Shown piece after piece: positions 11,001-39,074 of a stretch of DNA of 64,000 nt; the first letter of the stretch is position 1, and every line of letters begins with the position of its first letter. The notes beneath the pieces were generated by a model that saw only the letters and a list, made by a program, of their open reading frames with translations, made no database searches and was not told where the DNA came from. Position numbers and translations under genes: made by a program. Source of the stretch: Bradyrhizobium sp. SK17 (GTDB lineage Bacteria; Pseudomonadota; Alphaproteobacteria; Rhizobiales; Xanthobacteraceae); NCBI RefSeq assembly GCF_002831585.1, contig NZ_CP025113.1, forward strand, positions 682,001 to 746,000, written 5' to 3'.

Positions 11001-12104
11001 ATGCACGGGACGAGGACATTGCAGGAGGCCGACCGTCTGATGACGGTGTGCAATTCCTGCCGTTATTGCGAGGGCCTGTGCGCGGTGTTTCCCGCGATGG
11101 AGATGCGCCGCGCCTTCTCCGACGGCGACCTCAACTATCTCGCCAATCTCTGCCATTCCTGCGGCGCCTGCTACACCGATTGCCAGTTCTCGCCGCCGCA
11201 CGAATTCAACGTCAACGTCCCGAAGACACTCGCGGTGGCGCGCGCCGAATCCTACGCCGCCTATGCCTGGCCGCGCGCCTTCTCCGGCGCGTTCGCGCGC
11301 AATGGCCTGGTGATCAGCGTGATCACAGCACTCAGCGTCGCAGCCTTCATCTTCGGCTTCGCCGCGATCAACGACGTCAGCGTTCTGATGGGCATCCACA
11401 CCGGTCCGGGCGCGTTCTACAAACTGATGCCGCACAACGCGATGGCACTGTTGTTCGGCCTCGCTTTGCTCTACGCGATCCTGGCGCTGGCGATGGGCGT
11501 GCGCGCCTTCTGGCGCGATATCGGCGAGCCCATTGGCATGAAGACGGATGCGAGGGCGCTGTTGCAGGCGATCCGCGACGCCGGCGAGCTGCGCTATCTC
11601 GACGGTGGCGGCGTCGGGTGCTTCAACGAGGACGACCATCCGACCGATCGCCGCAAGCTGTATCACCACTTCACCTTCTACGGCTTCGCGCTGTGCTTCG
11701 CCGCGACCTGCGTCGGCACGCTCTATCACTACCTGCTGGCGCGCGAGGCGCCCTATGCGTGGTGGGACCTGCCGGTGGTGCTCGGCACGCTCGGCGGCAT
11801 CGGGCTCGTGATCGGCCCGATCGGGCTCCTGTCGGAGAAATGGAAGCGCGACCGCGTGCTGGTCGACGAGCAGGCCATGGGCATGGACACCGCCTTCATC
11901 CTGATGCTGTTCCTGACCAGCATCACCGGCCTTGCCTTGCTGCTGTGGCGCGAGAGCGCCGCGATGGGTCCGCTGCTGGCGCTGCATCTCGGCGTGGTGT
12001 TTGCGCTGTTCATCACGATGCCCTACGGGAAATTCGTGCACGGCATCTACCGCTTCGTCGCGCTGGTGCGCTACGCGCGGGAACGGCAGATGATGGCGGA
12101 ATAA
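11001..12104 (+). CDS. tcuB: TcuB-like Fe-S membrane protein
   Basis: Protein of 367 residues of the TcuB/CitB family. Two 4Fe-4S cysteine clusters are seen at C17-x2-C20-x2-C23-x3-C27 and C51-x2-C54-x2-C57-x3-C61, followed by about six membrane segments from residue 105 onward. TcuB passes electrons from reduced TcuA flavin to the membrane quinone or oxygen pool, so it sits in the cytoplasmic membrane. It begins 13 bases after the hydrolase gene and is the last gene of the operon, followed by a palindromic repeat at 12112-12216. Confidence 0.88.
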   Translation: MHGTRTLQEADRLMTVCNSCRYCEGLCAVFPAMEMRRAFSDGDLNYLANLCHSCGACYTDCQFSPPHEFNVNVPKTLAVARAESYAAYAWPRAFSGAFARNGLVISVITALSVAAFIFGFAAINDVSVLMGIHTGPGAFYKLMPHNAMALLFGLALLYAILALAMGVRAFWRDIGEPIGMKTDARALLQAIRDAGELRYLDGGGVGCFNEDDHPTDRRKLYHHFTFYGFALCFAATCVGTLYHYLLAREAPYAWWDLPVVLGTLGGIGLVIGPIGLLSEKWKRDRVLVDEQAMGMDTAFILMLFLTSITGLALLLWRESAAMGPLLALHLGVVFALFITMPYGKFVHGIYRFVALVRYARERQMMAE

Positions 12105-16636: not shown

Positions 16637-17947
16637 TCACTTCTCGCGGAACGAGCGCATGAACTGGTCGCTCATCGGCTTCATCAGGTAGGACAGCATG
16701 GTGCGGTCGCCGGTCTGCACGAAGGCCTCCACCGGCATGCCCGGGATGATCTTCACCTCGCTGCCGAGGCGCGCGACCTCCTCCGGCGGCATCGAGACGC
16801 GGATGGTGTAGTAGCTCTGCCCGGTGCGCTGGTCGGTGGTGACATCGGCGGAGACGCGGGTCACGACGCCGTTCAGCTCCGGCGTGGTACGCTGGTTGAA
16901 AGCGGAGAGCCGCAGCAATGTCTTCTGCCCGACCTGCAATTTGTCGATGTCCTGCGGATTGACCTTGGCCTCGACCGACAGGTCGTCGGCCTTCGGCACG
17001 ATCATCATGATGGCGTCACCCGCGGTGATGACGCCGCCGACGGTATGAACGGTGGATTGCAGCACCACGCCGTCCTGTGGCGCGCGGATATCGACGCGGC
17101 GGAGCTGGTCTTCCGCCGTCACCTTGCGCTCGACGAACTCGCCGATCTTGTCGTTGGTCTCGCGCAGATCCTTCGAGACCTCGGACAGCATGTCCTTGTC
17201 GACCTGGATGATCTGCAACTCGGTCTCGGTGATCTTGCCCTTGGCCTGGGCGCGCGAGGCGATGTATTGCGCGCGCTCGCCGGAGAGCCGCGCCGCGTCG
17301 CGCTCCAGCGTGGTCAGGCGGGTGAGCTGCACCAGATGCTGCTCGTAGAGCTGGCGGACGCCGACCAGCTCCTGCTGCACCAGCGCGATCTCCTTGTCCT
17401 TGGCGGCTTCCTGCGCCTGCAAGCCGGAGATCTCCTCGTTGAGCTGGGTGACGCGTTCGCGCAGTTGCGCCTTCTGGCCGGTGCGGCCGTTGACGCGGAC
17501 CTCGAACAGCTTGGTTTCGCTCGCCATGATGTCGCGAACGTCGGGATCGCCGGCCTGATCGAGCAGTTGCTGCGGAAATGCGATCTTGTCGCGGCCCTGC
17601 TGCTCGGCCTCGAGCCGGGCGGCGCGGGCATAGAGACCGTTCAGCGTCTTGACCACGATCGCAAGGCTCGCCTTCACGACCGTCTCGTCGAGACGCACCA
17701 CGATATCGCCCGCCTTGACCACGTCGCCGTCACGCACCCGGACCTCGCCGACCACGCCGCCGGTCGGATGCTGCACCTTCTTGACGTTGGATTCGACGAC
17801 CACCGAGCCCGGCGCGATCAAGGCGCCCGAGATCGGCACCGTGGCGGCCCAGCCGCCGACACCGCCGCCGAGAACGAGCACCACGGCGAGCCCGACAATG
17901 AGGTGCTTGCGGATCGAGAGATGCGCGTTGCGCGGTTGCTCCGTCAT
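16637..17947 (-). CDS. type I secretion periplasmic adaptor (HlyD/PrtE family)
   Basis: Membrane-fusion protein of 436 residues: one N-terminal membrane segment (IVGLAVVLVLGGGVGGWA), a lipoyl-like half (VQHPTGGVVGEVRVRDGDVVKAGDIV), a long central coiled-coil hairpin (about residues 95-285) and a C-terminal beta-barrel part with IRAPQDGVVLQSTVHTVGG and IIPGMPVEAFVQTGDR. The family links an inner-membrane ABC exporter to the TolC-type outer-membrane channel. Its start overlaps the stop of the ABC gene by four bases (ATGA). No outer-membrane channel gene is nearby. A plausible cargo is the VCBS-repeat protein at 33.5-37.7 kb. Confidence 0.93.
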   Translation of the reverse strand: MTEQPRNAHLSIRKHLIVGLAVVLVLGGGVGGWAATVPISGALIAPGSVVVESNVKKVQHPTGGVVGEVRVRDGDVVKAGDIVVRLDETVVKASLAIVVKTLNGLYARAARLEAEQQGRDKIAFPQQLLDQAGDPDVRDIMASETKLFEVRVNGRTGQKAQLRERVTQLNEEISGLQAQEAAKDKEIALVQQELVGVRQLYEQHLVQLTRLTTLERDAARLSGERAQYIASRAQAKGKITETELQIIQVDKDMLSEVSKDLRETNDKIGEFVERKVTAEDQLRRVDIRAPQDGVVLQSTVHTVGGVITAGDAIMMIVPKADDLSVEAKVNPQDIDKLQVGQKTLLRLSAFNQRTTPELNGVVTRVSADVTTDQRTGQSYYTIRVSMPPEEVARLGSEVKIIPGMPVEAFVQTGDRTMLSYLMKPMSDQFMRSFREK

Positions 17948-19695
17948 GGCTTGGCGTGCCCCGCATCGGCGACGATCTTGATCGGCGTCGGTACCGGCGG
18001 CGCAACGCGCTGCAACACCTGCGCCAGCACGGTCTCCTTCGGCCCGAAGGTCTGCATGCGGCCGTCCTTGAGCACCAGCAGCTGATCGACGCCCTCGATG
18101 CCGATCGGCCGGTGCGCGACCACCACGACGACGGCGCCACGCTCACGGGCGCCGCGCACCGCGCGGGTCAATGCCTCGTCGCCCTCGCTGTCGAGGTTGG
18201 AGTTCGGCTCGTCCAGCACGATCAGGAACGGATTGCCGTAAAGCGCACGCGCCAGCGCGACACGCTGGGCCTGGCCGGCGGAGAGCGCAGTACCCTGTTC
18301 GCCGACCTGGGTGTCATAGCCTTCGCGCATCTTGATGATCATCTCGTGCACGCCGGCTTCCTTGGCCGCCGCGATGATGCCGTCCGACGTGGCGTCGGGA
18401 TCGAACCGGCAGATGTTCTGCGCCACGGTGCCGGCGAACAGCTCGACGTCCTGCGGCAGATAGCCGACATGGCGACCGAGTTCGTCCGACGACCATTGAT
18501 CGAGCGCGGCGCCGTCGAGCCGCACCTTGCCGCGCGCCGGTGTCCAGACGCCGACCAGCGCGCGGATCAGCGACGATTTGCCGGAGCCGCTCGGGCCGAT
18601 CACGCCGACCCCGCTGCCGGCTTCGACGGTAAAGGAGACGTCCTGCACGATGGCGCGCTGGTCGCCCGGCGCGACCATGGTCACGGCTTCGACCGAGAGC
18701 TTCTTCTGCGGCGCCTGCAACAGCGTCTGCGCGGGCCGCGCCGGCAGCTGCTGCAACAGTCGGTTGAGCCGCTGCCAGCTCTGCCGCGCCGCGACGAACC
18801 CTTTCCAATGCGCGATCGCGAGATCGACCGGCGCCAGCGCCCGCGCGCTCAGGATCGAGCCGGCGATGATGATGCCGCCGGTGGCCTCCTGATGGATCAC
18901 GAGATAGGCGCCGACCGCGAGCACCGCGGACTGCAACATCATGCGCAGCACCTTGGCGACCGCACCGAGCCCGCCGGTGACGTCGCTCGCATGCTGGTTG
19001 CCGGACAGATATTCCTCGTTGGCCTCGTTCCAGCGCTTGTTCATCCGCCCGGCCATGCCCATCGCGACGAGCACCTCGGCATTGCGGCGGCTGGAGGCGG
19101 CGAGATCGTTGCGCCGCGCCGCCAGCGACATCGCCTCCTTGGCCGGCGTGCGCGACATGTATTCGGTGATCAGCGTCAGCGTCACCAGAATGATGGCGCC
19201 GGCCAGCGCGGTGACGCCGAGCAGCCAGTGGAACGCGAAGCAGATCGCCAGGTAGAACGGCAGCCATGGCAGGTCGAAGAACGCGCCGGGGCCCATGCTG
19301 CCCAGGAAGGAGCGCACATTGTCGAGGTCGCGCAACGGCTGCAACCCCTCGCTGCGATTGCCAGCGATCAGCGGCAGCCGCACGACGGTGTCGAACACCC
19401 GCGCATTGAGCGCCTCGTCGAGCGAGGTGCCGACGCGGCCGAGGATCCGTCCGCGCAGCAGGTCGAGCACGCCCTGGGCGATGTACAGCACCGCGGCGAT
19501 GACCACGAGACCGACCAGGGTCGGCACGCTGCGGCTCGGCAGCACCCGGTCGTAGACCTGCAGCATGAACATCGAACCTGTCAGGTACAACAGGTTGATC
19601 ATGCAACTGATGAGGCCGACACCGACGAAGGCACCGCGGCATGCGCGCAGCGCCTCAGCCAGTTCGGAACGCCGGACAGCGGGCGCACCTGCCAT
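17944..19695 (-). CDS. type I secretion ABC transporter, permease/ATPase (PrtD-like)
   Basis: Fused permease-ATPase of 583 residues. The membrane half spans roughly residues 20-310; the nucleotide-binding half has Walker A GPSGSGKSSL, the Q-loop LPQDVELF, signature LSAGQAQRVALARAL and Walker B FLIVLDEPNSNLD. It lacks a C39 peptidase domain, as in PrtD/RsaD/LapB-like exporters of RTX-type proteins. It is translationally coupled to the HlyD-type adaptor. The upstream 143-bp gap to the thioesterase holds no other gene. Confidence 0.93.
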   Translation of the reverse strand: MAGAPAVRRSELAEALRACRGAFVGVGLISCMINLLYLTGSMFMLQVYDRVLPSRSVPTLVGLVVIAAVLYIAQGVLDLLRGRILGRVGTSLDEALNARVFDTVVRLPLIAGNRSEGLQPLRDLDNVRSFLGSMGPGAFFDLPWLPFYLAICFAFHWLLGVTALAGAIILVTLTLITEYMSRTPAKEAMSLAARRNDLAASSRRNAEVLVAMGMAGRMNKRWNEANEEYLSGNQHASDVTGGLGAVAKVLRMMLQSAVLAVGAYLVIHQEATGGIIIAGSILSARALAPVDLAIAHWKGFVAARQSWQRLNRLLQQLPARPAQTLLQAPQKKLSVEAVTMVAPGDQRAIVQDVSFTVEAGSGVGVIGPSGSGKSSLIRALVGVWTPARGKVRLDGAALDQWSSDELGRHVGYLPQDVELFAGTVAQNICRFDPDATSDGIIAAAKEAGVHEMIIKMREGYDTQVGEQGTALSAGQAQRVALARALYGNPFLIVLDEPNSNLDSEGDEALTRAVRGARERGAVVVVVAHRPIGIEGVDQLLVLKDGRMQTFGPKETVLAQVLQRVAPPVPTPIKIVADAGHAKP

Positions 19696-31215: not shown

Positions 31216-33450
31216 CTACTTCGTCGTCAACGCGAACGCGCCATCCCAATCGACCGGCGGCGGTTCGGCCTGGAAGGCGCGAATCCGTGCCTCATAGAGA
31301 CTGTAGAGATACTGCAACGTCTGCGCCTCATCGGTCTTGCGGCCGCGCTCGATCGCAGCGAGTGCACCGTCCCAGTCACGGCCACGGTAGCAGGCGAGCA
31401 TCTCGATGGTCAGGTTGCGCAGCCGCTGGAAGCGCCCGGAGTTCGCCACGTCCTCGCGGCCGGCGATCGCGTAGATCACCTCGGGCTCCCTCTTGCCCTT
31501 GACCATGATGAAGTCGAGCTCGAGGATCGCGAATTTCTCCTTCACCGCGAGCGCGGTCTTCGATCCCACGATGATCGGGAAGCCATATTCCTTGGACTGT
31601 CCCTCGAGCCGCGAGGCCAGGTTGACGCTGTCGCCGAACACCGAATAGTCGAAGCGCACGTCGGAACCCATATTGCCGACCACGCAGGTGCCGGTGTTGA
31701 GACCGACGCCGATGTTCAGCGGGACATAGACATGCCCGCCATCCCGCGCCTCCTGCTCGCGCTCGCGGTTGAGGTCGCCGATGCGCTCCAGCATGTCGAG
31801 CGCGGCGTCGCAGGCGTTAATCTGGTGCTGTCTGTCGTCGAGCGGCGCATTCCAGAACGCCATGATGGCGTCGCCCATATACTTGTCGATCGTGCCCTTG
31901 CGGGCGAGGATCGCGTTGGAAAGCGGAGTGAGGAAGCGATTCATCAGCGCCGTAAGGCCCTGCGGGTCGCTCTTGTAGGTTTCCGAAATCGAGGTGAAGC
32001 CGCGCATGTCCGAGAACATGATGGTCATCTCGCGCTCCTCGCCGCCGAGCACCAGCCGCTCCGGCGATTGCGCCAGTTGCTCGACCAGCGCGGGCGACAT
32101 GTACTGCACGAACTGCGACCTGATCTGCCGGCGCTGCTGCTGTTCGCGCACGAAAGCGGAGAAGATCAGCGTGAGGTAGATCGCCGTGGTCGACATCAGC
32201 GGGTAAGTGAAGTCGATCAGGAGCCGATGCTGGGCATAGAAGTACCAGGAGGTGCCGATCAGCACTGAGGCGAACAGCCCGCCGACCGCGACCAGCGTCA
32301 CCGGGCCGAACTTCGGGGCGAAGGCGATCACCAGCAGACCCATGACCAGCGCGGCGAGGAATTCGATGCTGATGCCGTAGTTCGGCTGCGAGACGACGTC
32401 GCCGGTCAGCGCGCTCTCCAGCACCTGGGCATGAACCTCGACGCCGGGCATCGCCGGCGTCACCGGCGTCGTCTTGATGTCGTTCAGTCCGATCGAGGAG
32501 GTGCCGATCAGGACCAGCTTTCCGGCGATCTTGTCCGGCGCGACACGTCCCTCCAGCACGTCGATGGCCGAGACATAGATCGAGGGATCGCGGGGCGCGT
32601 AATGGATCCAGAGCTGGCCATTGCGATCGGTCGGGATCGCAAAACCCTTGACGCCGAGACTCTGAATGCCGGCCTCGTCGGCCTTGATCAGGATGGTGCC
32701 CGTGCCGCTCGCCACACGCAGCATCTCGAAGGTCAGCGACGGCATGGTGATGCCCTGGGCGACCATGATCATCGGCACGCGCCGCACGATACCGTCGCGT
32801 TCCGGCTTGATCGTGAACAGGCCGCGTCCGGCCGCCGCCTCTTCGAGCACAGGCACGTTGCGCAACAGTCCCGGAAACTCGACCATGAATTGCTGCGGCT
32901 CCTCGCCGAGCATCGCAAATCCCGTGACCGGCAGCTTTTCATTGAGGTCGGCGCGCACATTGGGGCCGCCGGATTCGCCGAGCACCACGCGCGAGCTCTT
33001 GATGGCGTCGGCCAGGATGCTGTCGTTGCTCGGCAACTGCCGCAACCTGGTGCGCATCTCCTCGTCGAGGCTGCTGAAGGTGTCGGCCGCGATATCGGGA
33101 TTGAGCCGGTCCGGCTCGGAGAACACAGCGTCGAAGGCGATCACCACGGCACCGAGCCGGGTGAGATTGATCACGATGTCGGCGATCCGCGTGCGGGGCC
33201 AGGGCCATTGTCCGAGCCGCGGATCGGCGAGGCTCTTCTCGTCGATGTCGACGATGGTGACTGGATGCGCAGCCTTCTTGCGGGGTTGGAGCACCTGAAA
33301 GGTGTCAAACGTCCTAACACGAATTTCCTGAACCGGAGCCGGATCCGCGGCGCGCAGCGCGGCCACGCCGATCAGCAGCCCGACGCAGGCCAGCCGCGCA
33401 TAACCGAAGCGCCGTCCGAACCACCTTCGTATCGCCCTCAGCCGTTTCAT
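31216..33450 (-). CDS. CHASE2-domain class III adenylate cyclase
   Basis: Membrane-bound cyclase of 744 residues. An N-terminal membrane segment is followed by an extracytoplasmic CHASE2 sensor (about residues 40-330, with TIVDIDEKSLADPRLGQWPW and GKLVLIGTSSIGLND), then about three membrane helices (345-425) and a class III cyclase domain (470-640). The catalytic region shows both metal-binding Asp contexts (MFSDMRGFTS and KYMGDAIMAFW) and DYSVFGDSVNLASRLEG. It should make cAMP in response to an envelope signal. It lies 69 bases downstream of the VCBS-repeat surface protein on the same strand, so co-expression is likely. Confidence 0.92.
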   Translation of the reverse strand: MKRLRAIRRWFGRRFGYARLACVGLLIGVAALRAADPAPVQEIRVRTFDTFQVLQPRKKAAHPVTIVDIDEKSLADPRLGQWPWPRTRIADIVINLTRLGAVVIAFDAVFSEPDRLNPDIAADTFSSLDEEMRTRLRQLPSNDSILADAIKSSRVVLGESGGPNVRADLNEKLPVTGFAMLGEEPQQFMVEFPGLLRNVPVLEEAAAGRGLFTIKPERDGIVRRVPMIMVAQGITMPSLTFEMLRVASGTGTILIKADEAGIQSLGVKGFAIPTDRNGQLWIHYAPRDPSIYVSAIDVLEGRVAPDKIAGKLVLIGTSSIGLNDIKTTPVTPAMPGVEVHAQVLESALTGDVVSQPNYGISIEFLAALVMGLLVIAFAPKFGPVTLVAVGGLFASVLIGTSWYFYAQHRLLIDFTYPLMSTTAIYLTLIFSAFVREQQQRRQIRSQFVQYMSPALVEQLAQSPERLVLGGEEREMTIMFSDMRGFTSISETYKSDPQGLTALMNRFLTPLSNAILARKGTIDKYMGDAIMAFWNAPLDDRQHQINACDAALDMLERIGDLNREREQEARDGGHVYVPLNIGVGLNTGTCVVGNMGSDVRFDYSVFGDSVNLASRLEGQSKEYGFPIIVGSKTALAVKEKFAILELDFIMVKGKREPEVIYAIAGREDVANSGRFQRLRNLTIEMLACYRGRDWDGALAAIERGRKTDEAQTLQYLYSLYEARIRAFQAEPPPVDWDGAFALTTK

Positions 33451-33519
33451 GCCGTCTGGATATCACGGTCGCGCGAGCCGATCACGCGCGGACTTTCGCA
33501 ACGGCCGGCTCGGCCGCCC

Positions 33520-36500
33520 TCAGGCAATGCCGCCGGGATGAAGGATGAAGTCGTTGATGTGCAGGTTCGCCCGATTGACGTTCGTCAGCATGATCGAATC
33601 GTTGGCATCGAGGTGAATCAGCGTGCCGTTGGCGAGCTGTTCGACGGCGGCATTGTTCAGCCAGGCGTTGAACGAGTCGGCATCGCCGGCAACGAAGGGC
33701 GAATAATCGAACAGGTTGATCTTGTCGATGCCAGGCTTGAAATCGGTGATCGTGTCGTTGCCGGTGTCGGCCCTGAACACGAACTGATCGGCGCCACCAC
33801 CGCCGGTCAGCGTGTTGGCATGGCTGGTCGCGAAGATCACGTCGTTGCCGGCGGTCCCTTGCAGCGCGATGTTCGGGCCTGAGGTCGTCAGGTTGAAGAT
33901 CAGATTGAGCGTGTCGCTCGCACCATGGCCATCGGTCACCGTGAGCGCAACCTGATCGGTCACCGGCGGCGTATGGCCGGGATCGGTGAAGGTAAGGCCC
34001 GTCGACCCGAGCGCGGCGTTGATGTCGGAGAGATGGCCGAGCAGCGTCGTCGGCGTCACGCTGTTGCCGGAGCCGGGCGGCGTCGACGCGGCCAGGGTGA
34101 ATATCTCGCTGGCCGCGGCATCGGCGTCCGTGACCGTCAGGCCGGTGATCGTTTCGGTCCCGTCGGGATTCTGGATCAGGCCGATATTGTCGGGATGGAT
34201 AATGGGCGCATCATTGGCGCCGATCACGTCGACGGTCAGCGTTGCGACCCCGACGGCGCCATGCACGTCGATCGTCTCGACACTGAACGTATCGGCGAAG
34301 GTCCCCTCACCCAACGCGTTGATCGCGGCCGAGTCGGGAACGTAGGTGTAGGTGCCATCCGCATGCACGGTGAGCGAGCCATAGAGACCCGCGATCGGCG
34401 TGTTGACCGCGAGATGGCTCGAATTGAGCGCGGCATAGGTCAGCATCGCGATTTCACCCTGGTCGACGTCATTGCCGTGGAGTGTCCCGGTCAGCGGGCT
34501 GAACGTGTCGTTGGCCGCGGTATCGACCAGCGTGCCGGCAATGACATTGGCGAGCGTCGGCGCGTCGTTGGAGCCGTCGATCGTGATCGTGATCGGCTGG
34601 GTGACGACGCCGCCATGATGGTCGTCGATCTGGATCGTATAGGTCAGCGTCAGCGTCTGGCCCGCGGCGAGATAGTCGAAATTCTTGTCCGCCGCCGAGA
34701 AGGTCCAGGTCGACGCTCCCGTCACGCCGCCGGTCGCGTCCGTCAACGTGCCGAGCGAGAGCCAGTTCAGGATGGTGGACTCGTCCTCGGTCAGGCCCGT
34801 GGTTGCGCCGGCCTCGGCGACACCGGTGATGGTCACCGCGTGGGTGTCGCTGAGATCGGCATCGGTGAACGTCACGGTGCCGGATGCGCTGTCCGGCTTC
34901 GACGACCCCGTCGTGTCGGGTTGCTCAATGATGGTCGCGGCCTGCGCCGCCGACGTGATGACCGGCGTATCGTTGCTGCCGACGATCATGATGATCACCG
35001 GCTGGCTCGCGATGCCGCCATGGTGATCGTTGACCTCGACCGTGTAGGTCAGCGTCAGCGTTTCGCCGGCAGCCAGATAATCGAAATTCTTGTCCGCGGC
35101 CGAGAAGGTCCAGAGCTGTGACCCGGTGATCCCGCCAGTCGAATCGGTCAGCGTGCCCAGCGAGAGCCAGTTCAGGATCGTCGATTCATCCTCGGGCAGG
35201 CCCGTGGTGGTCCCGGATTCCGCCACGCCGGTGATGGTCATCGTGTGGGTGTCGCTGAGATCGACATCGACGAACGTCATCGCGCCGTGGGCGACGTCGG
35301 GCGTGAGCGAACCGGTCACGCCGGGCGCCTCGGTAATCGTCGCGGTCGACGGCTCCGAGGTGAATGTCGGCGCGTCATTGGTCCCGGTGACGGTGATGGT
35401 CACGGGCTGGGTGACGACGCCACCATGATGGTCATCGACCTGGATCAGATAGGTCAGCGTCAGCGTCTCGCCCGCGGCGAGATAGTCGAAATTCTTGTCG
35501 GCCGCCGAGAAGGTCCAGGCCCGCGATCCGGTGACACCGCCGGTCGAGTCGGTCAGGGCGCCGAGCGACAGCCAGCTCAGGATCGTCGACTGATCGGGAA
35601 GGCCCGTAGTAACGCCCGCCTCGGTTACGCCGGCGACCGTGACGCTGTGGGTGTCGCTGAGATCGACATCGGTGAACGTCACCCTGCCGGACGCGACATC
35701 ATGCGTCAGCGAGCCGGTCACGTCGGGGATTTCGGTGATGGCCGCCGCCTGGGTCGGCGAAGTGATCACCGGCTTGTCGTCGGTTCCGACGATCGTGATC
35801 GTGACAGGGAGCGTGACGACGCCGCCATGATGATCGTCGATCTGGACCGTGTAGGCCAGCGTCAGCGTCTCGCCCGCGGCAAGATAGTCGAAATACCTGT
35901 CGGCAGCCGAGAAGGTCCAGGAGCGCGATCCCGTCACGCCGTCGGTCGAATCGACCAGTGCCCCCAGCGACAGCCAGCTCAGCACGGTGGCCTCGCTGGC
36001 GAGCCCCGTGGTGACACCGGCTTCGGTGACGCCGGTGATGGTGACGGAGTGGGTGTCGGTCAGATCGACGTCGGTGAATGTCACCGTGCCGTGTGCGGTA
36101 TCTGGAACGGTGGAGTTCGTCGTCCATGGCTGCTCGACGATCAAACCGACCTGTGCCGAGGACGTCACGACCGGCGCATCATTGGTACCGGTAATCGTGA
36201 TGGTGATGGTGTTGTACCCGGTCTCGTTGCTCAGCGCGAAATTGTTGTCGACGCGCACCATGTAGGTCAGCGTCAGCGTTTCGCCGGCGGCCAGGAAGTC
36301 GAAGGCGCCGTCGGCCAGGCTGTACGTCCACCTTGCCGAGCCGAAATTGCTGTTCAGCGGATTGGGATCCAGCAGCAGCGGGATCTCAACGGCCTTGATG
36401 GCCGCCAGTTGCACCGCCGTCAGCGACGAGGTCACGTCGTTGCCGCTGGCGTCGTGGTAGTTGAACGCATTGAAATAGGCCGTCGCAGTCGGCGTGTCGC

Positions 36501-37293
36501 CAAGATTGACGTCCACCCACGAGATCCCGCCCGTCACGGTGTCGGGCACCCCGCTATGAGTCACCCCGGGCTGCTCGGTGAACTCCGCATTCTGCGTCAC
36601 GACTTTCGGCGGCCCGGCGACGTGCTGGGACCCCGCGGCAACGGCCTGCGGGATGGTGACGCCGGAGATCGACAGCAGCACGGTGGTCGGCACGACGACG
36701 TCGCCGCCAGCGAGCTTGATACCGATCGTGACCGGGATGACGCTGTCAGTGAAGTTCGTCGTGAGCTTGGTGTTGGGATTCGAATTGTCGGTGAACTTCA
36801 GCGCGAAGACGTCCGAAATGAGCTTCTGCGCATCGGTCGACAGTTGCGCCGACGAGACGAAGCTGACGCTGCCCTGGCCGTTGACGATGGTCTGGGTGCC
36901 GGCCTGATCGACGGTCGCGATCGGATTGAGCGTCGTCTTGTCGAACAGGATGTATGAGCCCGTGGTGCCATCGGGCTCGACCAGCACCTGGAATTTGGCT
37001 GGCGGGACGCCGCCGGTGCCCTGCACGTCGAAATCGATCTCGACCAGCACCGCGGTGCCGCGGATGCCCATGGTCGCGACCGGCGTGTCGACCTTCATGT
37101 CGCCGTGCTTGGCGGTCGCACCGGCCACGAACGAGATCGTGCCCGAAACCAGGCTCATCAGCGACGAATTGCTCGACCCGTTCGGGTCGTAGATCATCTC
37201 GTTCAACACCATCTTGGCGTTCGGTCCGAGACCGAACACGGTGCCATCGATGAAGGTGATGCCGAGCGTCGAGTCGCTACCGGATTGCACCAC
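33520..37293 (-). CDS. giant VCBS-repeat, FecR-like surface protein, type I-secreted (3' part of a frame-broken gene)
   Basis: Main part (1,257 residues) of a large secreted protein. Order: FecR-like/retention-type beta module (about residues 1-90, FIDGTVFGLGPNAKMVLNEM, TPVATMGIRGTAVLVEI), a linker with VAAG at 218-221, five VCBS-type repeats each ending FDYLAAGETLTLTY...DDHHGG...GTNDAP, two further cadherin/VCBS-like units, and a C-terminal RTX-type secretion segment (LTGGGGADQFVFRADTGNDTITDFKPGIDKINLFDY). Such proteins leave through type I secretion and act in adhesion or biofilm. The reading frame continues upstream without a start into a different frame at a C6 tract (37410-37415); the first 107 residues are in the neighbouring frame. 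Confidence 0.88.
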   Translation of the reverse strand: MVQSGSDSTLGITFIDGTVFGLGPNAKMVLNEMIYDPNGSSNSSLMSLVSGTISFVAGATAKHGDMKVDTPVATMGIRGTAVLVEIDFDVQGTGGVPPAKFQVLVEPDGTTGSYILFDKTTLNPIATVDQAGTQTIVNGQGSVSFVSSAQLSTDAQKLISDVFALKFTDNSNPNTKLTTNFTDSVIPVTIGIKLAGGDVVVPTTVLLSISGVTIPQAVAAGSQHVAGPPKVVTQNAEFTEQPGVTHSGVPDTVTGGISWVDVNLGDTPTATAYFNAFNYHDASGNDVTSSLTAVQLAAIKAVEIPLLLDPNPLNSNFGSARWTYSLADGAFDFLAAGETLTLTYMVRVDNNFALSNETGYNTITITITGTNDAPVVTSSAQVGLIVEQPWTTNSTVPDTAHGTVTFTDVDLTDTHSVTITGVTEAGVTTGLASEATVLSWLSLGALVDSTDGVTGSRSWTFSAADRYFDYLAAGETLTLAYTVQIDDHHGGVVTLPVTITIVGTDDKPVITSPTQAAAITEIPDVTGSLTHDVASGRVTFTDVDLSDTHSVTVAGVTEAGVTTGLPDQSTILSWLSLGALTDSTGGVTGSRAWTFSAADKNFDYLAAGETLTLTYLIQVDDHHGGVVTQPVTITVTGTNDAPTFTSEPSTATITEAPGVTGSLTPDVAHGAMTFVDVDLSDTHTMTITGVAESGTTTGLPEDESTILNWLSLGTLTDSTGGITGSQLWTFSAADKNFDYLAAGETLTLTYTVEVNDHHGGIASQPVIIMIVGSNDTPVITSAAQAATIIEQPDTTGSSKPDSASGTVTFTDADLSDTHAVTITGVAEAGATTGLTEDESTILNWLSLGTLTDATGGVTGASTWTFSAADKNFDYLAAGQTLTLTYTIQIDDHHGGVVTQPITITIDGSNDAPTLANVIAGTLVDTAANDTFSPLTGTLHGNDVDQGEIAMLTYAALNSSHLAVNTPIAGLYGSLTVHADGTYTYVPDSAAINALGEGTFADTFSVETIDVHGAVGVATLTVDVIGANDAPIIHPDNIGLIQNPDGTETITGLTVTDADAAASEIFTLAASTPPGSGNSVTPTTLLGHLSDINAALGSTGLTFTDPGHTPPVTDQVALTVTDGHGASDTLNLIFNLTTSGPNIALQGTAGNDVIFATSHANTLTGGGGADQFVFRADTGNDTITDFKPGIDKINLFDYSPFVAGDADSFNAWLNNAAVEQLANGTLIHLDANDSIMLTNVNRANLHINDFILHPGGIA
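34561..36190. repeat. four tandem ~405-bp VCBS repeats
   Basis: The conserved block GATAGTCGAA recurs at 34671, 35076 (one mismatch), 35481 and 35883, and a diverged version at 36294, giving periods of 405, 405, 402 and 411 bp. Each unit encodes about 135 residues. The near-identity over long stretches indicates recent duplication or gene conversion and makes the region prone to length change or assembly collapse. Confidence 0.9.
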
Positions 37294-37367
37294 GTCGCCC
37301 TTGTTGACGTTGTCACCCTGGTTCAGGATGATCGCGACGCCGTTGCGAATGGCGGTGGCACTTCCGG

Positions 37368-37730
37368 TCAGCTTGGTGACGTGGCCGATGACCTTGGCCG
37401 GTTCCGCGGCCCCCCAGCCTGCGCGTACTGGGTATAACCGGTGAGCGCGTTGACGAGGTCGCCGGTGAGATGCGCACCCTCAGGCGACGCCAGCGCCGCC
37501 CGGTGCTCGCCCTTGAAATAGTCGCGCAGAACCAGTTCCCGGTCGTCCTTCGCGATGACGAGGTCGAGCCCGGTCCGCTTGAAGTCGCCGGTGAACAGCA
37601 ATTGCCCGTCGTCGACCGTGATCGCGCCGGGCGGCGCATGTGTGGAGACGCTGTCGACATGAACCGACCCGCCACGGGCATAGGCGTCCGTGTCCGGCAA
37701 AAAGCCGTCGAATTTATCGACAAAGTTCAC
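37368..37730 (-). pseudogene. 5' part of the VCBS-repeat surface protein gene, frame-broken
   Basis: Encodes the N-terminal start of the surface protein: GTG at 37730, MNFVDKFDGFLPD..., then GAITVDDGQLLFTGDFKRTG and LVIAKDDRELVLRDYFKGEH, ending in-frame sense at YAQAG near 37416. After the G6 tract (C6 on the plus strand, 37410-37415) this frame reads nonsense to 37368, while the continuation (AAEPAKVIGHVTKLTGSATA) appears in the frame of the downstream open reading frame. Seven or four Gs instead of six would restore one 1,400-residue protein. It may be a sequencing error, slippage-based phase variation or a true mutation. Confidence 0.8.
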
Positions 37731-38321
37731 GGGCGGCTCACCGCACGATGGTTAAAATTCTTAAGGTATCCAAATGAATGCTTATGCATATCACTGGATA
37801 AAGCCTGGCGAAACCATGTCGTGCTTGCGCACGGTGCTCCGGCCGCGCCTTCTTGCCGGGTCAGCTCCGGCCCCCTGTCTCGCGACTCGTGTAGTTCGGA
37901 CTCGATAAACGGTATCATGAGGTGGGATTCGGGCCAAGATGGGTATTGAGCCACGTGTTCGTGGTATCGATCGACATCACTCTACTTGCCTCTATTTGCC
38001 CGCAGTCCCGGGCCGGGAGTTAACCGCAAACTTCCGGCTAAAGCTGTGAATTAGCTTACAAATTACAGCAGCCCTGCGCGCGGACAGCCGATTGCCCGAA
38101 TCCAAGCGTAAGGCGGCGCGAGGGCAGAAAAGGTTCGCTGGTTCCCTTCACAAACCGATAAAGTTTTCGGGACCCTGACCACGCGACCTTCAGCCTCTTG
38201 CCCGGTTTCCCCACATCTTAAGCGGATTCAAAGGGCCGTCTGCCATGTTGGTGGCATTGAAACGATCCGGTCACGTGCGCGGTGCAGCATGCGCCCGCCG
38301 ATGCCCGGACAGGGGTGTCAC
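37731..38321. other. intergenic region between the surface-protein and LapG-like genes
   Basis: This 591-bp gap has lower GC than its surroundings and should hold the divergent promoters of the surface protein and the LapG-like protease. I see short dyads such as AAGCTGTGAATTAGCTT at about 38041-38057 but no convincing gene, repeat family or known operator. Confidence 0.6.
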
Positions 38322-39074
38322 ATGGGATTCTCGCTTCGCTCGCGCACGCTGCGTGCCGTCATGCTGGGGTTCGGCCTGGCGCTGACCGCCCCGATTGCCG
38401 AGCTCAACGCCGCGTCGCTGCTGTCGCCCGGCCCGGCAACATTGATCAGACAATCGACCGAGCCGTTCGGCCAGCGGACCAGCCTGCTCGCCGGCGGCGG
38501 CCTGCACGACAAATGGCTCGGCGTGCAGCGCCAACTCGCGGGCGAAATGGTGCAACTCGCGATCTGCGAAGGCGACCGTGAGGGTTGCGCGTCGCAAGAG
38601 GCGTTGCGGTTCCTGGCGATCGTCGATGCCGGACGGGCGCGGGACGGCCGCGCCCGGTTCGGCGAGATCAACCGCGCGATCAACCTGGCGATCCATCCGG
38701 CCAGCGATCTGGCCGCCTATGGCGAGCCCGACGTCTGGGCCACGCCGCTGGCCACCTTCGCTCGCGGCAGCGGCGACTGTGAGGATTATGCGATCGCGAA
38801 ATTCGTGGCGCTGCGCGAGGCCGGCGTCGCGGCGGACGACCTCCGCATCGTCGTGATGCACGATTTGCTCGGCGGCGAGGACCATGCCGTCGTCGCGGCG
38901 CGGCTCGCCGGCCACTGGCTGATCCTCGACAACCGCCGCATGGCGATGATCGAGGATTCCGATATCAGGAATTTCCGGCCGACCTTCGTGATCGACCAGC
39001 ATGGCGTCAGCCGCTATGTCGATGCGCCGCTCGTCACCGAGGCCGCGTGGCGGCCGGCCGTGCCGGCGAATTGA
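38322..39074 (+). CDS. LapG-like bacterial transglutaminase-like cysteine protease (BTLCP)
   Basis: Periplasmic protein of 250 residues with a signal peptide (RAVMLGFGLALTAPIAELNA). The BTLCP catalytic triad is visible as C153 in GSGDCEDYAIAKF, H188 in GGEDHAVVAA and D203 in WLILDNRR. In Pseudomonas, LapG of this family cleaves the N-terminal retention module of the adhesin LapA under control of LapD. Here the gene is divergent from a giant FecR-like/VCBS surface protein, an obvious candidate substrate; no LapD homologue is in the window. The start is the ATG at 38322 after CAGGGG; an upstream ATG at 38289 is possible. Confidence 0.88.
   Translation: MGFSLRSRTLRAVMLGFGLALTAPIAELNAASLLSPGPATLIRQSTEPFGQRTSLLAGGGLHDKWLGVQRQLAGEMVQLAICEGDREGCASQEALRFLAIVDAGRARDGRARFGEINRAINLAIHPASDLAAYGEPDVWATPLATFARGSGDCEDYAIAKFVALREAGVAADDLRIVVMHDLLGGEDHAVVAARLAGHWLILDNRRMAMIEDSDIRNFRPTFVIDQHGVSRYVDAPLVTEAAWRPAVPAN

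Follow-up and report, generated by a model that had tools for sequence, protein, structure and literature searches.

Gene content of the locus

A candidate adhesin module was analysed in a 64,000-nucleotide stretch (the window) of the 8.29 Mb genome of Bradyrhizobium sp. SK17 (NZ_CP025113.1, positions 682,001-746,000 of the forward strand). It encodes a large surface protein with FecR, VCBS and RTX features, flanked by a LapG-like cysteine protease of the BTLCP family and by a CHASE2-domain adenylate cyclase, with genes of a type I secretion system (T1SS) elsewhere in the window. The features were as follows, in window positions.

16637-17947, minus strand: HlyD-type membrane fusion protein, 436 aa (PF13437)
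17944-19695, minus strand: type I secretion ABC transporter, 583 aa (PF00005, PF00664)
31216-33450, minus strand: CHASE2-domain adenylate cyclase, class III, 744 aa (PF05226, 192.6 bits; PF00211, 79.6 bits)
33520-37293, minus strand: FecR/VCBS/RTX type I-secreted surface protein, 1257 aa in the listed open reading frame (ORF), whose frame stays open to about 37479
33520-33867, minus strand: RTX/serralysin-type C-terminal secretion region of the adhesin (PF00353, residues 1144-1170; NF035945, residues 1143-1249, below its cut-off)
34174-36576, minus strand: VCBS/cadherin-like repeats, limits approximate (TIGR01965, six stretches; PF17803, four stretches)
37039-37405, minus strand: FecR-type domain of the adhesin, its presumed anchor for retention, limits approximate
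37410-37730, minus strand: conserved N-terminal domain of the adhesin, in a frame differing from the rest
37731-38288, no strand: intergenic region separating the divergent adhesin and protease genes; the 33 copies cut out for comparison measured 565-741 bp
38289-39074, plus strand: LapG-like BTLCP cysteine protease, 261 aa, with a signal-peptide-like N-terminus as judged by eye (PF06035, 63.6 bits)

The FecR domain of the surface protein (PF04773) scored 33.6 bits against a gathering score of 24 and, with the repeats and the RTX/T1SS C-terminus, gives the protein the domain arrangement of an adhesin and not that of a FecR anti-sigma regulator. The original prediction, made from the DNA letters of this stretch, had described a type I-secreted VCBS protein with a FecR-like, retention-type N-terminus and an RTX-like C-terminus, and each of these parts was recovered (FecR, TIGR01965, PF00353). 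The CHASE2 adenylate cyclase that it placed downstream of the adhesin was likewise borne out by PF05226 and PF00211. The cyclase residues D481, K523, D527, D607, N610 and R614 were each kept in 48 to 49 of 49 aligned relatives and the cyclase domain resembled solved adenylyl cyclases in a Foldseek search; the predicted product of the enzyme is cyclic AMP (cAMP).

Conservation within Bradyrhizobium

Close relatives of the protease and of the cyclase were present in all 35 same-genus genomes compared. The best matches to the two lay on the same contig and less than 12 kb apart in 31 of these genomes and on different contigs in the remaining four (G012, G016, G030 and G035). Thirty of the 31 had the adhesin between them, transcribed away from the protease and toward the cyclase, with a same-strand gap to the cyclase of approximately 57-286 bp and of 1248 bp in G003 (n = 30). 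In G012 and G030 the two ends of the adhesin adjoined the protease and the cyclase on their separate contigs. The adhesin N-terminus was divergent from the protease in 32 of the 33 congeners in which the site was visible, G006 being the exception, while the site was cut off in G016 and G035. Conservation of this gene order had been proposed as a check on the original prediction, and neither a lack of co-occurrence nor random placement of the genes was seen.

Of 14 congeners examined over the 18-19 kb that follow the cyclase, 13 carried the same HlyD/ABC pair there; it was missing in G022. This supports the assignment of the distant type I secretion genes (16637-19695) to the adhesin module, as originally suggested.

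The module core beyond the genus

Named genomes were scanned with the N-terminal module of the adhesin as query (alignment A1). The best 80 (L122-L201) of 477 confirmed relatives of the module of one metagenome-assembled genome (MAG), many of them MAG contigs, came mostly from Hyphomicrobiales and Rhodobacterales as judged from record titles; three of them (L122, L193 and L201) are records of G041, G012 and G001 and so overlap the genome sets. Genes were counted with hidden Markov models trained on L042-L121. A cyclase was present in 55 of these 80 loci, a T1SS gene in 56 and a LapG-like protease in 20.

A subset of 37 fully visible alphaproteobacterial loci was defined by a closed adhesin ORF with at least 9 kb upstream and at least 4 kb downstream, a choice made post hoc with the data already seen. 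Of the 25 loci in which the cyclase was missing, two belonged to this subset and the other 23 were cut short at one or both ends. The fully visible loci contained a cyclase in 35 cases, a T1SS gene in 28 by the stricter count and a protease in 16. A uniform looser count with every gene at E < 1e-10 gave 35 for the cyclase, 30 for ABC, a tally that may take in other ABC ATPases, 27 for HlyD and 16 for the protease, while three window neighbours from outside the module occurred in only 4, 3 and 2 of the 37 loci. The cyclase was retained in 19 of the 21 fully visible loci in which the protease was not seen.

Gene order varied between lineages. In Afipia (L177) the protease was divergent from an adhesin, ABC, HlyD and cyclase series; in Roseibium (L140) the protease, HlyD and ABC genes shared one strand with adhesin and cyclase on the other; and in Roseovarius (L157) the ABC and HlyD genes were followed by an opposed cyclase and then the adhesin. 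An association that is kept while the order is rearranged points to function, and the counts for cyclase (35/37) and T1SS (28/37) against that for the protease (16/37) indicate a core of adhesin, T1SS and cyclase, so that the protease loses the central place the original prediction had given it. Many soil and marine bacteria thus have these core genes grouped together. The observation is real, and we consider it very probable that the neighbourhood represents a conserved functional unit.

The adhesin and its predicted anchor

The N-terminal module of the adhesin resembled both a solved adhesin-anchoring domain and the FecR/PupR signalling domains, suggesting a double fold for anchoring and signalling, and matched the retention_LapA model only below its cut-off. 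In some distant members of the family (L081/L122 and L124) the segment following the FecR domain was long and of low complexity, with GDPAE, GGE or proline runs, which would fit passage of the chain through a conduit in the outer membrane.

The "giant" adhesin ORF of the original prediction is present, but it does not begin at position 37293 and, at 1257 aa, it is small for its family, in which lengths from stop to stop ranged from 1389 to 3713 aa (30 congeners with adhesin and cyclase on the same contig). About 106 codons of the N-terminal domain (approximately 37730-37410) lie in another frame, the shift falling at about 37.41 kb, where there is a run of G. Both pieces shared one frame in 32 of the 32 relatives in which both were found, which indicates that an intact adhesin is the rule and that the copy in SK17, the only one with a split frame, is either broken or misread. 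The SK17 module may be decaying, or its adhesin may have been switched off by the frame change. The same picture would result if the homopolymer had been misread in sequencing or assembly, and the reading frames of the SK17 cyclase and protease are intact; we regard decay or switching off as a serious possibility, at somewhat under an even chance.

The cyclase and the pairing of FecR with CHASE2

A quick tree separated 61 adhesin-paired cyclases from 11 distant ones by a fully supported branch, with L082, whose contig begins before an adhesin would be visible, and L047, whose adhesin is relocated, counted among the adhesin-paired. Cyclases linked to the adhesin thus appear to form a clade of their own. 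The named members of the 120 listed cyclase relatives (of 7981) were almost all from Bradyrhizobium. The 50 Foldseek matches listed for the CHASE2 fold were all cyclases by title and gave nothing informative on CHASE2 itself. One orthologue (L066, 8689-10916, genome G024) was in two pieces corresponding to residues 1-637 and 651-744, and the cyclase is therefore apparently broken in that genome.

Proximity of FecR and CHASE2 genes was tallied in 50 genomes across the class, leaving out of 51 CHASE2 matches the own-genome match and two sub-cut-off ones. A FecR match lay within 12 kb of 13 of the 48 remaining CHASE2 matches where 0.86 would be expected, and within 3 kb of 10 of the 48 where 0.22 would be expected, these random expectations ignoring contig fragmentation. 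Ten genomes picked for carrying a relative of the cyclase gave 15 of 21 CHASE2 matches within 12 kb of FecR against an expected 0.28. These neighbours also occurred for CHASE2 proteins outside the present cyclase subfamily, and in a separate set, more distant genomes of the order, several FecR neighbours of the cyclase's relatives (L083-L092) were short with signal-peptide-like N-termini as judged by eye. An operon of a FecR protein and a CHASE2 histidine kinase is reported as a biofilm switch in Burkholderia (excerpts of PMC5192318). The pairing is therefore wider than the adhesin, FecR may be a general partner of CHASE2, and at this locus the FecR half has been built into a T1SS adhesin.

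A proposed attachment-signalling unit

In type I secretion the C-terminus is exported first, hence an N-terminal domain that folds is kept back in the periplasm. We propose that the adhesin is exported by the T1SS with its C-terminus leading, and that the FecR-type N-terminal domain would then fold in the periplasm and hold the chain in its outer-membrane conduit. Anchored there, the FecR domain could make contact with the CHASE2 domain, which the cyclase exposes to the periplasm; retention of the adhesin, or a pull on it, would then alter cAMP output and provide an outside-in signal of attachment. Signalling would stop when the adhesin is cut or lost, and where a LapG-like protease is present its removal of the anchor would end both adhesion and signal. 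That the locus encodes such a dedicated adhesin-cyclase unit, in which the periplasmic anchor reports the state of the adhesin to the cyclase, we hold to be about an even chance. A broader and more tentative proposal, which we place well short of even, is that of an alphaproteobacterial receptor class in which the adhesin is the ligand of the sensor and the FecR-type retention domain gates a dedicated CHASE2 cyclase. Surface contact, pulling force or completed secretion would then lead to cAMP, with the optional protease acting as a reset, in the reverse of Lap signalling.

Several results weigh against a dedicated adhesin-cyclase unit. The adhesin of SK17 itself is frame-broken; in G006 the adhesin has gone from the locus while protease and cyclase remain side by side; and two of the 37 fully visible loci (L173 and L190) have no cyclase. 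FecR-CHASE2 fusion proteins were absent among the 120 listed (of 7981) cyclase relatives. Distance matrices for 40 of 52 loci, those with all parts present, gave no excess of FecR-CHASE2 correlation, the partial r being 0.11 as against 0.34 for FecR and the cyclase domain. Finally, no Clr/CRP-like site with up to one mismatch was found in 33 divergent adhesin/protease regions where 1.8 would be expected, using a general consensus.

The last result also bears on the explanation that cAMP from the cyclase controls expression or other functions of the adhesin, with CHASE2 sensing a small molecule and the FecR anchor being merely an anchor. In favour of it, all 30 congeners with both genes on one contig have the cyclase following the adhesin on its strand, and the signals sensed by CHASE2 are described as not known in excerpts of PMC5192318. 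At up to two mismatches the divergent regions held 7 Clr/CRP-like sites against 19.8 expected with the same consensus, and short promoter-like blocks were the only conserved elements found in them. As CHASE2 genes generally lie near FecR genes, also outside this subfamily, we consider control of expression unlikely.

The protease and possible release of the adhesin

The protease is homologous to LapG of known structure (PDB 4u65, E 5e-13; 4fgo, E 5.1e-9) and scored 69 bits with the curated equivalog model CystProtLapG, below its cut-off of 320. Its catalytic triad, originally given as C153, H188 and D203, is real and invariant in 48 of 48 aligned relatives; that numbering started from Met12, and in the 261-aa ORF the residues are C164, H199 and D214. 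The LapG motif is defined as a helix followed by DP and [T/A/P]AAG (excerpts of PMC13090378). Neither this canonical site nor the pattern [TAP]AA[GV] was conserved in the first 420 residues of 33 FecR adhesins, and the emphasis of the original prediction on LapG-type release is only partly borne out. A wider pattern, [TAPVS]AA[GV], occurred once each in SK17, L057, L069 and L074, at unrelated places, and in none of the other 29. The VAAG of the SK17 adhesin was rejected as a LapG site as it is not common to its relatives. Cleavage of the FecR adhesin by this protease is plausible, but the site, if cut, must differ from the LapG motif.

A second kind of giant adhesin (class II; L111-L118 and L202-L205) was observed in Bradyrhizobium beside T1SS genes and a paralogous LapG-like protease, which lay between the T1SS genes and the giant open frames in eight of eight loci (L111-L118). 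Neither the FecR module nor this kind of cyclase was detected at those eight loci by tblastn. In six of six N-termini seen, class II adhesins had LPAA[GD] after a helix-like stretch, probably a LapG-type site in Alphaproteobacteria, and the genomes with class II adhesins coincided exactly with those that had a class II protease (9 of 20). Co-occurrence and motif together tie this protease clade to T1SS adhesins. The SK17 genome has no class II adhesin. Two further LapG-like proteases (L109 in G025 and L110 in G020; 52-56% identity) had no T1SS pair, FecR module, cyclase of this kind or adhesin within the 17 kb covered.

The protease might also have a periplasmic substrate unrelated to the adhesin, as does HvyA of Caulobacter, which would leave a unit of adhesin, T1SS and cyclase only. 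BTLCPs can act on other envelope processes (excerpts of PMC4241560), the protease occurs in just 16 of 37 loci and the adhesins carry no canonical cleavage motif. It is nevertheless the divergent neighbour of the adhesin N-terminus in 32 of 33 congeners, and the relocated FecR adhesin of G006 (L119, 3198-7745) is also accompanied by a protease, another one with 37% identity. We judge an unrelated target improbable, at a level similar to that of expression control, and the best reading is of a lineage-specific cutter outside the module core. In the same G006 locus, a few kb from the relocated adhesin, there is another FecR protein (11270-11995), short and with an N-terminus resembling a signal peptide.

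A search of the SK17 genome with PF16448 gave one sub-cut-off match only and no recognisable LapD, as the original prediction had noted for the window, with the limit that a divergent LapD would be missed. The single match was rejected as LapD, its ORF reading by eye as a MoxY-like histidine kinase. Lap-like inside-out control, in which the CHASE2 cyclase or cAMP would replace LapD and cyclic di-GMP (c-di-GMP) in governing a releasing protease, is the least probable of the alternatives. In its favour, protease, adhesin and cyclase occur together in 30 of the 31 congeners and the proteases of this clade go with T1SS adhesins. Against it, most loci without the protease still have the cyclase, FecR adhesins show no conserved cleavage motif, and a cyclase produces a messenger whereas LapD reads one. 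Of what was first suggested, the link with cAMP as second messenger is supported, while inside-out release of the LapG/LapD kind is not the best-supported reading. With the protease outside the core and the motif not conserved, signalling from the anchor to the cyclase is the better supported reading.

Comparison with known systems

The Lap system (LapA, LapG and LapD of Pseudomonas fluorescens under c-di-GMP, with relatives in Vibrio and Desulfovibrio) shares with this one a giant RTX adhesin exported by a T1SS, a retention-type N-terminal domain, here a sub-cut-off match, and in some lineages a LapG-like protease nearby. It differs in that no LapD and no conserved [TAP]AAG site were recognised here, the partner is a CHASE2 adenylate cyclase, the anchor runs on into a FecR signalling fold, and 21 of the 37 fully visible loci showed no protease. 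Cell-surface signalling by FecR/PupR consists of a TonB receptor, FecR and a sigma factor. Here, by contrast, FecR is part of a secreted adhesin and not of an inner-membrane anti-sigma regulator, and its neighbour is a cyclase.

The Burkholderia BiofilmReg operon, comprising a response regulator, a LysM/FecR protein and a CHASE2 histidine kinase, likewise pairs a FecR protein with a CHASE2 sensor and is linked to biofilm formation. As described in excerpts of PMC5192318, it places FecR in a peptidoglycan-binding protein with a signal peptide, has histidine kinase output and includes neither an adhesin nor a T1SS. Sinorhizobium meliloti has the receptor-like adenylate cyclases CyaD1, CyaD2 and CyaK with Clr, so that signalling by a CHASE2 cyclase (CyaD1) has a rhizobial precedent, and the FecR protein SMc02177 is a Clr target (excerpts of PMC5498481). 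A T1SS adhesin is not mentioned in the excerpts, and neither "adhesin" nor "VCBS" occurs in the text of the paper; no Clr site was found at the present locus. Listings from open-licence PMC, a search that covered neither subscription papers nor preprints, contained nothing that described a FecR adhesin together with a CHASE2 cyclase, and just three papers there had both CHASE2 and FecR. The system appears to join Lap-type retention with FecR/CHASE2 signalling.

Significance

The proposal concerns how bacteria come to sense their own attachment. Should the anchor of a giant adhesin indeed gate a cAMP-producing cyclase, one protein would serve as both glue and sensor, and CHASE2 would gain a concrete candidate partner in FecR-fold domains. 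The presence of the module in Bradyrhizobium and in Roseibium and Roseovarius relatives could make it relevant to how roots and surfaces are colonised.

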